The notes below the pieces were generated by a model that ran no database searches, was not told where the DNA came from, and was given only the letters and a program-made list of their open reading frames with translations. From Micromonospora lupini (GTDB lineage: Bacteria; Actinomycetota; Actinomycetes; Mycobacteriales; Micromonosporaceae), in contig NZ_JAPENL010000002.1 in assembly GCF_026342015.1 (NCBI RefSeq), positions 129,001 through 193,000 on the forward strand: DNA of 64,000 bases. Direction: 5' to 3'. A program made the position numbers and the translations under genes. Shown here one piece after another: positions 18,672 through 42,565 of this stretch (the first letter of the stretch is position 1; each line of letters opens with the position of its first letter).

Positions 18672-19250
18672 GCCACTGATCTCCTTGGGCGAGACCGGGC
18701 TCGCGTACGGCCCGGCGAGACGGCCCGGCGGGCGTCCTGCACGGACGGCCTCCGGCGCCACGGGATTTATTGGGGGGTGCCCGACCCGGACGGGCGGTGG
18801 TGGTGTTGGTGGTGATTGGCCGGCGTGCGGCCGACCGATCGGCGGCCGGTTGTCGTCCGGCGAACCGGATGCCCTCGACGCCCTGCCTGCGCGGTGTGGC
18901 TCCCCGAACCGCGTGCGCCGATTCTTGCATGGGAGCGCTTCCATGGCAATGGCTCGATGCGCGGCCCGCCCTCAACTCGGACGATACCCCCGAGCAGCGC
19001 GAGCGGCACCTGCCGCCCGTTACCGGATGACAACCGCTGGCCGAGCACTGCGGGTCGGCAACAGCGCGGGGCACGCGCAAGGTCGTGCGGGGTTCGAGAC
19101 GGCACTGCGAGCCGAGAAAGCCGCGTAGCACCCCTTTGCCGCTTACCACCAGCAAAGGTTAAAACGCGAATCTTTCACTTCATTAGTCATGAAACGGTCT
19201 AACGTCGGTCGTAGCTCGGTTGTCGCCGGGCTCAGGACAACAGGGATGGA
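18672..19250. other. 579-bp divergent intergenic region between cellulase and repeat protein
   Basis: No convincing gene. On the cellulase side it holds the GGAG-type binding site, an AT patch near 18763-18772 and the CebR-like site at 18930. A small inverted repeat (CCTTTGC/GCAAAGG) lies at 19133-19158, and an AT-rich stretch at 19157-19204 is the likely promoter zone for the plus-strand gene at 19251. Confidence 0.6.
18930..18943 (-). promoter_or_regulatory. CebR-type operator upstream of the cellulase
   Basis: TGGGAGCGCTTCCA differs by one base from the 14-bp CebR consensus palindrome TGGGAGCGCTCCCA, at which the LacI-family repressor CebR represses cellulase and cellobiose genes in Streptomyces and relatives until cellobiose binds. 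The site lies about 260 bp upstream of the cellulase start, implying a long leader or a second promoter nearer the gene. Confidence 0.85.
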
Positions 19251-20720
19251 GTGACGCAGGTCATGGCTAAGAAGATGCTCGGGAAGGTCGTTGCGGGCGC
19301 CGCACTCGGCGGCGCGTCGCTCCTGGTGTTCGCGCCGGGGATCGCGTTCGCTGACGGGCACCACGGCGAGGACGGCAAGGTCTACGCCAAGCCGCACGTC
19401 GTGAAGGCCGGCGACGAGGTCAAGCTCCTCGAGATCTGCCCGGATCGGCAGGAGCACGCGTACGTGTGGTCCAAGGTCACCGGCAAGGTCAAGCTCGAGC
19501 CGGCGCGGGACGACCGGGGCGAGGACCGCGGCGAGTGGAGCGAGGAGGAGGACTCCTACGACCACGACGACAAGGGCAAGGACGAGCACGGCAAGGACGA
19601 CGAGGGCAAGGACGACAAGGCCAAGGACGAGCACGGCAAGGACGACAAGGCCAAGGACGACAAGGCCAAGGACGACAAGGCCAAGGACGAGCACGGCAAG
19701 GACGACAAGGCCGACGAGCAGGGTAAGGGCCACGAGGGCAAGGACGAGAACGGCGACGACAAGTCCGACGACGCCCAGCCCGGCGGGCAGGGCGGCGGCG
19801 CTGCCGCCGACGCCTACGGCGACGAGGACAGCAAGGACTGGAAGGGCGAGGAGCACGGCCAGGACGCGGACGACAGCCACGAGCAGAAGGACTCGGAGTC
19901 CAAGGACGAGGACAGCAAGGGCTGGGAGTCCAAGGACGAAGACAGCAAGGGCTGGGAGTCCAAGGACGAAGACAGCAAGGGCTGGGAGTCCAAGGACGAA
20001 GACAGCAAGGGCTGGGAGTCCAAGGACGAAGACAGCAAGGGCTGGGAGTCCAAGGACGAAGACAGCAAGGGCTGGGAGTCCAAGGACGAAGACAGCAAGG
20101 GCTGGGAGTCCAAGGACGAAGACAGCAAGGGCTGGGAGTCCAAGGACGAAGACAGCAAGGGCTGGGAGTCCAAGGACGAAGACAGCAAGGGCTGGGAGTC
20201 CAAGGACGAAGACAGCAAGGGCTGGGAGTCCAAGGACGAAGACAGCAAGGGCTGGGAGTCCAAGGACGAAGACAGCAAGGGCTGGGAGTCCAAGGACGAA
20301 GACAGCAAGGGCTGGGAGTCCAAGGACGAAGACAGCAAGGGCTGGGAGTCCAAGGACGAAGACAGCAAGGGCTGGGAGTCCAAGGACGAAGACAGCAAGG
20401 GCTGGGAGTCCAAGGACGAAGACAGCAAGGGCTGGGAGTCCAAGGACGAGCACGGCTCGGACGACGAGCGCGAGTTCGTGTACTACGGCGACGCCAAGGT
20501 CGACAAGGACGCCAAGCCGGGTCGCTACGAGCTCAAGGGCTCGTGCGGCGAGGGCGAACTGGTAGTCCTGCCCCACGGTGGGGTCGACGGTGGTGACGGC
20601 GGCGTCAGCACCGGCACCGACCGTGGCCTGGCCACCGGTGGTGCGGGCCTGCTCGGCGCTGCCGCGCTGGGCGGGATCGTTCTGATGCGTCGTCGGCGGA
20701 CCGATGGTTCGCTCGTCTGA
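19251..20720 (+). CDS. Secreted repeat protein with 18 tandem decapeptides and C-terminal sorting-like tail
   Basis: 489 aa. The GTG at 19251 has AGGGA ahead of it; an ATG at 19263 is possible. A signal peptide (cleavage near IAFADG) precedes a short beta-rich segment (KVYAKPHVVKAGDEVKLLEI). A Lys/Asp-rich region (DDKAKDEHGK types, about 105-165) then leads to 18 copies of ESKDEDSKGW (residues about 216-395). A second beta-rich segment (YYGDAKVDKDAKPGRYELKG) follows. The C-terminus has LATGG, a hydrophobic helix and RRRR, the shape of a sortase sorting signal though not canonical LPxTG. The next gene is a sortase, overlapping the stop, so this is probably its substrate. Function is unknown. 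Confidence 0.85.
   Translation: MTQVMAKKMLGKVVAGAALGGASLLVFAPGIAFADGHHGEDGKVYAKPHVVKAGDEVKLLEICPDRQEHAYVWSKVTGKVKLEPARDDRGEDRGEWSEEEDSYDHDDKGKDEHGKDDEGKDDKAKDEHGKDDKAKDDKAKDDKAKDEHGKDDKADEQGKGHEGKDENGDDKSDDAQPGGQGGGAAADAYGDEDSKDWKGEEHGQDADDSHEQKDSESKDEDSKGWESKDEDSKGWESKDEDSKGWESKDEDSKGWESKDEDSKGWESKDEDSKGWESKDEDSKGWESKDEDSKGWESKDEDSKGWESKDEDSKGWESKDEDSKGWESKDEDSKGWESKDEDSKGWESKDEDSKGWESKDEDSKGWESKDEDSKGWESKDEDSKGWESKDEDSKGWESKDEHGSDDEREFVYYGDAKVDKDAKPGRYELKGSCGEGELVVLPHGGVDGGDGGVSTGTDRGLATGGAGLLGAAALGGIVLMRRRRTDGSLV
19896..20435 (+). repeat. 18 tandem 30-bp units encoding ESKDEDSKGW
   Basis: Eighteen head-to-tail 30-bp units in frame. The first has GAG where the other 17 have GAA; those 17 are identical at every base. 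Such uniformity points to recent expansion or gene conversion, so copy number may vary between strains. Each decapeptide carries a net charge of -2. Confidence 0.98.
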
Positions 20721-21429
20721 CGTGACGGCGACACGGGCCGGCGGCCGTCACGGGAGACCGTGGCGTGCCGCCGGCACGGCCGTCGTCGTCACCCTGGCCA
20801 TGATCGGCGCCGGCATGATCGGCGCCTCGTTGCAGGACCGGCCCGCTGCCCGCCCTCCGCAACCGCTCGCCCAGGCCGGCCCCGAGGTCTCCGGGCCGAC
20901 GGCCACCGGCAGCGACGCCACCGCGCCGGACGGCGGGGAGCACGCCGCGCCTGACGACGTTCCCGACGGGCTGAACCGGGCTGCCCCGACCACCATCGAG
21001 ATCCCCCGCATCGGCGTCAACGCGACGATCATGTCGCTCGGCACCAACCCGGACGGCACCGTCCAGGTCCCCCCGTTGGAGCAGGCCGACCAGGCTGGCT
21101 GGTACGAGCCGGGCGCGAGCCCTGGTGAGACAGGTAACGCGGTAATCGTTGGGCACGTGGACTCGGCGAAGCTCGGCCCGGCCGTCTTCTTCGACCTCGG
21201 CTCGCTCGTGCCCGGTGACACGATCACTGTGCAGCGGGCGGACGGCCAGCCGGCGACGTTCCGGGTCGACTCGGTGAAGTCGTACCCGAAGACGTCCTTC
21301 CCCACCGACCTGGTCTACGGGCCGAACGACCGGCCCGGCCTGCGGGTGGTCACCTGCGGTGGCCAGTTCGACGAGGCCGCCAGGAGCTATCGGGACAACA
21401 TCGTCGTCTTCGCCACCCTGGCGGCGTGA
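20704..21429 (+). CDS. Class F-type sortase
   Basis: 241 aa. A Gly/Ala-rich N-terminal membrane anchor (about 20-40) and a Pro/Ala-rich spacer precede the sortase beta-barrel (about 95-241). Catalytic residues are His151 (VGHVDSA), Cys218 (VVTCGG) and an Arg in RSYRDN (227-230). The protein is anchored outside the membrane and should join a sorting-motif protein to the cell wall or another acceptor. The start overlaps the stop of the repeat protein by 17 bases, so the two are translationally coupled, which marks the repeat protein as likely substrate. Confidence 0.9.
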   Translation: MVRSSDVTATRAGGRHGRPWRAAGTAVVVTLAMIGAGMIGASLQDRPAARPPQPLAQAGPEVSGPTATGSDATAPDGGEHAAPDDVPDGLNRAAPTTIEIPRIGVNATIMSLGTNPDGTVQVPPLEQADQAGWYEPGASPGETGNAVIVGHVDSAKLGPAVFFDLGSLVPGDTITVQRADGQPATFRVDSVKSYPKTSFPTDLVYGPNDRPGLRVVTCGGQFDEAARSYRDNIVVFATLAA

Positions 21430-40327: not shown

Positions 40328-42565
40328 ATGTCGCACGGCGAGGAACTGTTCGCTCTCGGCGGGGACGTGACCACGGAGCCCAGCTTCGAGTCCGCTCTGC
40401 GGGGGTACGAGAAGAAACAGGTTGACAGGTACGTCGCGCGTGCCGAGCACGAGATCGCGACCCTCGCCGCCGAACGGGAACAGGCCTATACACAGATCCA
40501 CAAGCTCGCCGGCCAGGTCGAGGTTCTGCAACGGGATCTGACCCAGGTCCGCAAGCAGATGAACGTGGTGGACCGCGCCTCCTTCCGGCACCTGGGCCCC
40601 CGCGTCGAGTCGATCCTCACCCTCGCCGAGGAGCAGGCCGAGCAGATCCTCTCCGCGGCCAACGAGGAGATCGAGGCCCGTCGCGCCACCGCCGAGCACA
40701 TCATCGAAGAGGCCCGCGAGCAGGCCGCGCGGGCGTTGAAGGACTTCGAGATCGCTCTCGCCGCCCGGCGCCAGGAGGAGGAGCGGCACAGCGCCTCCCG
40801 CCGCGCCGAGGCGGACGCCACCCTGCGGTCGGCCAAGGACGAGTCGGCGAAGCTGCGCAAGGCCGCGCAGGACGAGCTGGCCAAGGCCCAGCAGGAGGCC
40901 ACCCACCTGCGGGACACCGCCAAGGAGATCCACACCCGGGCACAGCAGGAGGCCACCAAGCTGCGCGAGGCCGCCCGCGAGGCGCTGACCACAGCTCGGC
41001 AGGAGGCCGGCGAGCTGCGCGAGGCGGCCAAGGAGGTGCACGCCAAGGCCCAGCAGGAGGCCAAGCGGCTCACCGACACGGCGACCGAGGCGGGCCGGGC
41101 GACTCACGCCAAGGCACAGCAGGAGGCCAAGCAGATCATCGACGACGCGTCGATGGCCGGCCGGGCCACCCGCGCCAAGGCACAGCAGGAGGCCGAGCGG
41201 CTGACCACGCAGGCGTCCGAGTCGGCCAAGCGCAGCCGGGCCGAGACCGAGGCGTACGTGCAGCGGATGCGCGGCGAGACCGAGGCGTACGTGCAGCAGT
41301 CCCGGGCGCAGACCCAGCAGGAGCTGGGCGCCTGGCGGGCCGGCGTGGAGCAGGAGGTCAACTCGCGGCGCGAGGCGGCCGATCGCGAGCTGGCCCAGCG
41401 ACGGTCCACCGCCGAGCAGGAGTTCGCCAAGCGCCGCGACGAGCTGGACAAGCAGCACGAGTCCCGCCAGCAGGAGCTGGAGTCGGGCTGGACCGCGCGC
41501 AGCACCGAGCTGGAGTCGGGCTTCACCGCCCGGCGCGACGAGCTGGAGACCGAGTACTCGACCCGCAAGGACGCGCTGGAGACCGAGTACACAGGTCGTA
41601 AGAACGAGATCGAGCAGGGTGCCGAGGCGATCCGCCTGGCGGCCGAACGGGACGCGTCGGCCCTGCGCGAGCGCGCCGAGACGGAGGCCGCCGAGCTGCT
41701 GGGCCGGGCCGAGACCGAGGCGGGCGACAAGCGCCGCAAGGCCGACGAGCACGTCGCGGCCTCGCGCCGCCAGTTCGAGGAGTACGCGGCCACCACCCAG
41801 CAGCACCTCGCCACCACGCAGCAGCACCTGGCGGCGACACAGCAGGAGTCGGCGGCCGGCCGGCAGCAGCTCGCCCAGGTGATGCTGGAGATCGCGCAGG
41901 CGCAACAAGAGCTCGCCGACCTGCGGCAGGAGACCTGGAAGGCGCGGCAGGAGTCCGACGAACTCGAACGGCAGATGACCGAGGTGCGGCTCCGCGGCAC
42001 CACCGGCCCGATCGACGGCCCGACGACACCGGCCACTGGCGACCGCCCCGACGCGCCGGCCGGGACTGCGACCGTGTCCGCGTCGGCAGGCGGCGAGGCC
42101 GTGACCGGGTCGGGCATCGGTGACGACGGGGCTGCCGCGCCCGCCGACGCTGGCACGGTGGGCGGTCGCAAGGGCGAGCCCGACGACGCTGGTACGCCTG
42201 TCGGCGCCGGTGCCGTGGCCGCTCTGAAGCCCGACGACGCCAGCGTGCTTGCCGATGCCGGCAGCGCGAACGGCCGCACGGGCGAGACCGACGACGCCCG
42301 GCAGCCGGCGAACGCCGCCGCGGGCGGCGAGTCCGGGCAGTCCACGACCCGGCCGGTGGCCGAGCCGATGACCACTGTCGACGGTGGCGCGGCCAGCGCC
42401 GGGGTGGACGGCGAGCCCACTGTGGCGGCCGTTCCGGGCGAGGGTGGCCGGGGCGCCAAGCCAACGAAGATCACCAGCACCGGTGAGAACGGCAAGCGCC
42501 CCAGCAAGCCGACCACCGACGAGCGCAGCGCCAAGCCCAGCAAGGTCACGATCGAGAAGGACTGA
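40328..42565 (+). CDS. Long DivIVA-domain coiled-coil protein (Scy/FilP-like)
   Basis: 745 aa from the ATG at 40328 after GGGGG. The N-terminal motif FESALRGYEKKQVDRYVARA echoes that of the upstream paralogue. An unusually long coiled coil covers about residues 30-570 and includes repeated AQQEATKLRE-type and RDELETEYSTRKDALETEYT segments. A disordered Gly/Ala/Asp tail (about 580-745) with DDAG-like repeats follows. It is probably a filament-forming scaffold of polar growth. The gene is separated from its partner by a hairpin and may have its own promoter. Confidence 0.85.
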   Translation: MSHGEELFALGGDVTTEPSFESALRGYEKKQVDRYVARAEHEIATLAAEREQAYTQIHKLAGQVEVLQRDLTQVRKQMNVVDRASFRHLGPRVESILTLAEEQAEQILSAANEEIEARRATAEHIIEEAREQAARALKDFEIALAARRQEEERHSASRRAEADATLRSAKDESAKLRKAAQDELAKAQQEATHLRDTAKEIHTRAQQEATKLREAAREALTTARQEAGELREAAKEVHAKAQQEAKRLTDTATEAGRATHAKAQQEAKQIIDDASMAGRATRAKAQQEAERLTTQASESAKRSRAETEAYVQRMRGETEAYVQQSRAQTQQELGAWRAGVEQEVNSRREAADRELAQRRSTAEQEFAKRRDELDKQHESRQQELESGWTARSTELESGFTARRDELETEYSTRKDALETEYTGRKNEIEQGAEAIRLAAERDASALRERAETEAAELLGRAETEAGDKRRKADEHVAASRRQFEEYAATTQQHLATTQQHLAATQQESAAGRQQLAQVMLEIAQAQQELADLRQETWKARQESDELERQMTEVRLRGTTGPIDGPTTPATGDRPDAPAGTATVSASAGGEAVTGSGIGDDGAAAPADAGTVGGRKGEPDDAGTPVGAGAVAALKPDDASVLADAGSANGRTGETDDARQPANAAAGGESGQSTTRPVAEPMTTVDGGAASAGVDGEPTVAAVPGEGGRGAKPTKITSTGENGKRPSKPTTDERSAKPSKVTIEKD

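Follow-up and report, generated by a model that had tools for sequence, protein, structure and literature searches.

The gene at 19251..20720 of the analysed window, a stretch of 64,000 nucleotides from Micromonospora lupini, encodes a predicted sortase substrate whose gene overlaps that of a class F sortase. The reading that we prefer, with moderate confidence, is that a sortase-displayed, Ig-like wall domain, probably closed by a disulfide, presents a disordered polyelectrolyte loop.

Gene Organization and Upstream Region

The substrate gene (+ strand, as are all features of the locus given below) starts with GTG and encodes a predicted secreted wall protein of 489 aa with a split beta domain. 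The signal peptide that the preliminary description had placed at its start is present (residues 1-35, 19251..19355), ends with ..AGAALGGASLLVFAPGIAFAD and was near-invariant across the orthologs. It is followed by the first half of the split Ig-like beta domain (residues 42-85 with Cys63, 19374..19505), a charged, low-complexity insert that is predicted to be disordered (residues 86-407, 19506..20471) and the second half of the domain (residues 408-441 with Cys432, 20472..20573). The sorting motif LPHGGVDGGDGG (20568..20603) was recognised from the ortholog alignment, and the C-terminus carries a hydrophobic segment and then RRRR (20643..20699), in agreement with the sorting-like tail that had been noticed earlier.

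The sortase gene (20704..21429) encodes 241 aa with His151 and Cys218. Its product scored 208.8 bits with NF033748, for which the cut-off is 166, and this confirmed the proposed assignment to class F. The stop of the substrate gene had been described as overlapping the start of the sortase gene; the overlap is real, and its extent is 17 nt from the sortase ATG to the substrate TGA, beyond the stop codon alone.

A block of ~100 bp in front of the substrate gene (CGAATCTTTC..ATAAGTC.TGAAACGGTCTAACGTCGGTC.., 19160-19262, + strand) was strongly conserved over 68 aligned Micromonospora loci, unlike a normal intergenic region. The part before the start codon (19160..19250) probably holds a promoter and 5' UTR, and the promoter may depend on an alternative sigma factor. 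The Rfam scan of the upstream region gave no match, and the sigma-70 scan of its + strand found nothing. No regulon was found, because the element occurs once in the genome.

One Domain Split by the Insert

The split domain was examined by profile comparison of the joined flanks and by folding of natural proteins. The joined flanks of 53 orthologs matched the uninterrupted L118 family with 97.2% probability (HHalign, E 3e-11), with 70 collinear columns across the junction, and the single halves matched the corresponding parts of that family at E 4e-7 and 2e-5. As controls, the halves in swapped order gave a match of one half only, and the reversed sequence gave nothing. A second uninterrupted paralog family, L148, matched the C half directly (E 2e-5, 48% identity). 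Both families belong to the M. lupini genome itself and comprise proteins of ~160-205 aa with a homologous beta domain, two cysteines, an adjacent class F sortase and no insert. Insert-free homologs of the same length (~160-205 aa), with a beta domain, two cysteines and a class F sortase next to them, were also found in other genera of Micromonosporaceae (L221, L223, and L226).

In the AlphaFold model of the window protein, residues 41-80 and 411-440 formed five and three strands, respectively, with mean pLDDT of 92-98 (96-97 in the core of the second half), and the insert stayed below 50 nearly throughout. A much shorter ortholog gave a comparable AF2 model; across both proteins the halves reached pLDDT 91-98 and the insert fell below 50. 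When the predicted model was structurally aligned, 72-89 residues spanning 37-442 were placed on single contiguous Ig-like domains with Z of 6.3-7.3. The fold matches were middling overall (Z up to 7.9, none ≥8), and thus "Ig-like" is meant here as a description of the arrangement and not as a proven family. Neither the split protein nor the joined domain nor the paralogs reached the cut-off of any Pfam family, and the substrate profile had no match in the PDB by sequence. Foldseek against the PDB gave no match at E ≤ 0.001, by which a new fold is not shown. The collinear homology to an uninterrupted paralog, the AlphaFold models and the fold alignment agree, and they support the earlier suggestion that the two flanks together represent one domain split by the insert.

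Each half contributes one cysteine, and these two are the sole cysteines after the signal peptide in all 59 orthologs. They probably form a Cys63-Cys432 disulfide, which would close both the domain and the loop. Five species (L019, L029, L032, L107, and L117) have lost the beta strands and retained the cysteine on each side of the repeats, the repeats themselves and the sorting tail. The sortase tree did not place L019 directly beside L029 and L032, and the beta domain may thus have been lost more than once.

Repeats and Composition of the Insert

The low-complexity insert of the window protein is ~320 aa long (residues ~86-407) and not 180, because a weaker array of degenerate 15-bp repeats of the GKDDK/GKDEH type (19566..19754) precedes the decapeptides. 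The latter (ESKDEDSKGW, 19896..20435) form the strongest array in the window, with 18.8 copies, 99% match and a score of 1105 in TRF. The count of 18 tandem decapeptides, 17 of them identical at the DNA level, was borne out, and the first unit differs from the others by one synonymous base. So many identical 30-bp units would indicate a recent expansion. A semi-conserved segment between the two arrays (GGQGGGAAAD..DWKGEEHGQDA, 19782..19868) recurs in most Micromonospora orthologs in the form GGxGGGAAAD..DWKGxEHGQDAE, inside an otherwise unconserved insert. Elsewhere in the window, tandem repeats of 54-66 bp were observed at 40850-41206; their consensus in one frame (KLREAAKEVHTKAQQEAT) suggests that they belong to a long coiled-coil protein.

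The insert length ranged from 124 to 324 aa among 53 Micromonospora genes, of which the window gene had the longest, and the insert of Salinispora vitiensis was longer than all 53. The net charge was negative in each of the 53 inserts, charged residues made up 32-68%, and the residues ILVMFC had a median of 0.4%. The repeat units varied by species (15, 24, 30, 36, 45, 48, 57, 60, and 120 bp, among others). The uniform acidic repeats with regular Trp that had been described for the protein hold in this species, and its relatives carry other repeats at the same site. Outside Micromonospora, the same site was occupied by EYKKYKEY, PTPGQPTTPGQP, PAEDPAKAE-like or HHDDKKWDHEK units, and by Pro/Thr-rich sequence. 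One such locus (L215, 4463000-4468000 of G082 C1) had a same-site insert of His/Lys/Asp units (HHDDKKWDDKKHFEHHDKKF), chemically far from the acidic Micromonospora type.

The insert length, the repeat unit and, between genera, the chemistry thus change, and the insertion site, the two cysteines, the scarcity of hydrophobic residues and the gene overlap are constant. Since the chemistry differs in other genera, net acidity is not a requirement of the whole family; the shared property of the inserts is hydrophilic disorder, rather than acidity or the spacing of Trp. Nearly all relatives keep the domain and swap the repeats, so the physical nature of the loop, and not its exact sequence, seems to matter. 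The sortase tree is compatible with a single origin of the insert but does not prove it.

Two other explanations of the insert have to be weighed here. The first is that the surface loop tolerates slippage-driven repeat expansion as a neutral passenger, and that the folded domain alone matters. The rapid turnover of unit and length and the 17 identical copies would fit it, and so would the ratio of changes between adjacent units within the arrays, where pN/pS was 1.42 (bootstrap 1.11-1.82) against 0.31 in the flanks. However, GC-biased codon usage contributes to this ratio, and we therefore gave more weight to the pattern at the second codon position, which was spared in the differences between repeat units (0.48 of the other positions). 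T at this position, which specifies hydrophobic residues, occurred in 63 of ~11,800 codons (0.5%). Such an exclusion of second-position T and of hydrophobic residues argues against a passenger. Moreover, every complete Micromonospora ortholog that was read bears the insert, none of the 53 measured being shorter than 124 aa, and the five species without the folded domain still hold it between the two cysteines. We consider a neutral insert unlikely.

The second explanation takes the insert for a cation-binding loop, whose acidic repeats would capture Ca2+, Mg2+ or metals at the wall and, once loaded, order or cross-link the surface layer. The window insert has 40% D+E and a net charge of -0.21 per residue, and the negative charge of all 53 Micromonospora inserts would suit this. 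However, lysine is abundant as well, no known metal-binding motif was recognised in the insert, and Pro/Thr-rich, mixed K/E or His/Lys-rich inserts stand at the same site in other genera. Cation binding is accordingly not a likely role of the loop either.

Sorting Tail and the Class F Sortase

The conserved element of the tail is LPxGxVxxGDGG, in which P, G, V and GDGG were invariant in 59 of 59 orthologs and the leading L was found in 55. It lies ~30 residues before the arginines. The preliminary description had taken LATGG as a tail signal departing from known motifs. This did not hold: LATGG is variable (24 of the 59 orthologs, with LAAGG, LATAG, MAAGG, LATTG and others elsewhere) and was rejected as the sorting motif, and LPxGxVxxGDGG falls within the GVDTG sorting domain NF058571. 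No canonical LPXTG/LAXTG pentapeptide exists in the window protein, which contains LPHGG and LATGG only. NF058571 matched all 53 orthologs searched at E ≤ 0.01; the window protein, matched at residues 441-482, scored 26.6 bits as a protein, where the cut-off is 29, and 32 in the genome search. In the M. lupini genome, the GVDTG sorting domain was matched four times, each time directly upstream of a class F sortase, and a class F sortase was found within 1.5 kb of such a domain at 13 of 15 loci of other actinobacterial genomes (L229-L243). The tail is therefore a subtype of a described signal.

The catalytic His151 and Cys218 of the sortase were invariant in 20 aligned homologs. For the catalytic Arg, there was no conserved candidate after the Cys in these sequences, and R214, just before it, was nearly invariant. 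The single sortase sequence had no match in the PDB by sequence, and a sortase profile gave weak, class-distant sortases only. The genome encodes seven class F-like sortases.

The overlap of the two genes was kept at 57 of the 60 loci in which both were readable, with 17 nt at 44 and 14 nt at 13; at least two of the three exceptions are frame-broken or gapped assemblies. The pairs of other genera have the 17-nt overlap too. By this conservation across loci and genera, coupled expression of the substrate and the sortase is strongly, though indirectly, supported. Almost all Micromonospora examined have the pair, and so do Salinispora and several other genera of Micromonosporaceae. Two sortase genes of this kind were observed in tandem at three loci of other Micromonosporaceae (L209, L210, and L217); at L217, each is preceded by a split-domain substrate, and the Pro/Thr-rich insert is long in one of these substrates and short in the other. 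Two further class F sortases of the M. lupini genome (L006 and L007) have neighbours with larger, different extracellular parts and a DTPVDVYV/DTPAVDVYL motif, which are possibly another type of class F substrate.

It may be asked whether the class F neighbour is the processing enzyme at all, or whether a class E sortase, or none, acts on the tail. The motif is neither LPXTG nor LAXTG, the adjacent enzyme has no conserved Arg after its Cys, and among the Actinoplanes sortases substrates are known only for a class E enzyme (PMC13251363). However, the gene overlap is conserved across genera, and the GVDTG tail adjoins class F sortases throughout the phylum, which makes processing by another enzyme quite improbable.

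Proposed Display of the Loop at the Cell Wall

According to the favoured reading of a wall-displayed domain with a disordered loop, the substrate and the class F sortase would be a translationally coupled pair, in which the sortase is dedicated to its substrate. The substrate would be exported, its tail (LPxGxVxxGDGG, the hydrophobic segment and RRRR) would be cut by the adjacent sortase, and the product would be joined to peptidoglycan. The only folded part would be the Ig-like beta domain beside the anchor, probably closed by Cys63-Cys432, with one inter-strand loop replaced by a charged, predicted disordered repeat region of 120-320 residues that is nearly free of hydrophobic residues and is longer in Salinispora. 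This region would protrude from the wall as a loop with both ends in one domain. In the least certain step, the loop might act as a hydrated polyelectrolyte brush or matrix spacer at the surface of hyphae or spores, a role that we find plausible but hold at somewhat less than even confidence.

The topology bears on the stalk-in-a-domain design of the preliminary description, which had to be given up. Both repeat ends leave the same anchor-adjacent domain, and therefore the repeats form a loop and cannot lift the domain off the wall. A repeat stalk adhesin, whose repeats project a binding domain off the wall as in fibrillar adhesins, is very improbable: long tandem repeats, a signal peptide and a sorting tail would be expected of it, and one ortholog is weakly similar to MSCRAMM models (ClfA, ClfB, and SdrD), probably via its repeats, but no folded adhesive domain was found at the distal end of the repeats, the insert has pLDDT below 50, the split domain beside the anchor is the sole confidently folded part, and five species keep only the repeats between the two cysteines.

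Relation to Known Systems

The GVDTG tail type and its pairing with class F sortases are already known; here they occur as a motif variant with a disordered loop in a split domain. NF058571 proteins with class F sortases (NF033748) in Actinomycetota share with the window protein the tail type, the signal peptide and the position directly upstream of the sortase. The window protein differs by its LPxGxVDGGDGG variant, with G for T, and by the long disordered loop.

Class F sortases occur widely among actinobacteria, and no physiological role is known for them (PMC13251363). In Actinoplanes missouriensis, neither the single deletions of the four class F sortases nor the deletion of all four brought a visible change (PMC13251363), and the function of the window pair is thus perhaps subtle. 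AMIS_11010 and AMIS_36440, which lie beside srtF1 and srtF4 and have no pentapeptide motif, were proposed as possible substrates (PMC13251363). They resemble the window protein in having a signal peptide, a TM segment and a basic tail without a canonical pentapeptide. However, no insert was reported for them, and they are likened here by description.

SspA, described by the same group, is a disordered wall protein that is anchored by a class E sortase and required for firm sporangia (PMC13293333). Like the window protein, it is a wall-anchored protein of Micromonosporaceae with an intrinsically disordered mature part (PMC13293333). It differs in its length of 191 aa, its wholly disordered nature, its LPVTG tail, the class E enzyme SrtE and a gene that is not beside a sortase. 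LPVTG is absent from the window protein, and the neighbouring sortase belongs to class F. Thus, the window protein is not an SspA, though by analogy SspA may serve as a same-family precedent of a wall protein that is disordered and has a structural role. The long chaplins of Streptomyces (PMC5148588) are likewise actinobacterial, sortase-displayed surface proteins, but they are different proteins with an LAXTG motif and a class E enzyme.

Implications for the Family

A bolder proposal, which we put forward tentatively and hold more loosely than a brush-like role of the loop, concerns the whole family. Class F sortases might mount an Ig-like clip, one loop of which is a disordered cassette that evolves fast, can be freely exchanged and is closed by a conserved disulfide; selection would then act on bulk polymer properties (length, charge, and hydrophilicity), and slippage of the repeats would retune the surface. 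The clip of some species would be reduced to the two cysteines that hold the loop.

The locus is a clear one-to-one pair of a sortase and its predicted substrate with an invariant, non-canonical motif, and it makes class F specificity directly testable. The relatives also provide a natural series of inserts, from <100 to >300 residues and of many chemistries, at one fixed site. With this series one can ask what such a disordered loop contributes at the surface and which of its properties are visible to selection.
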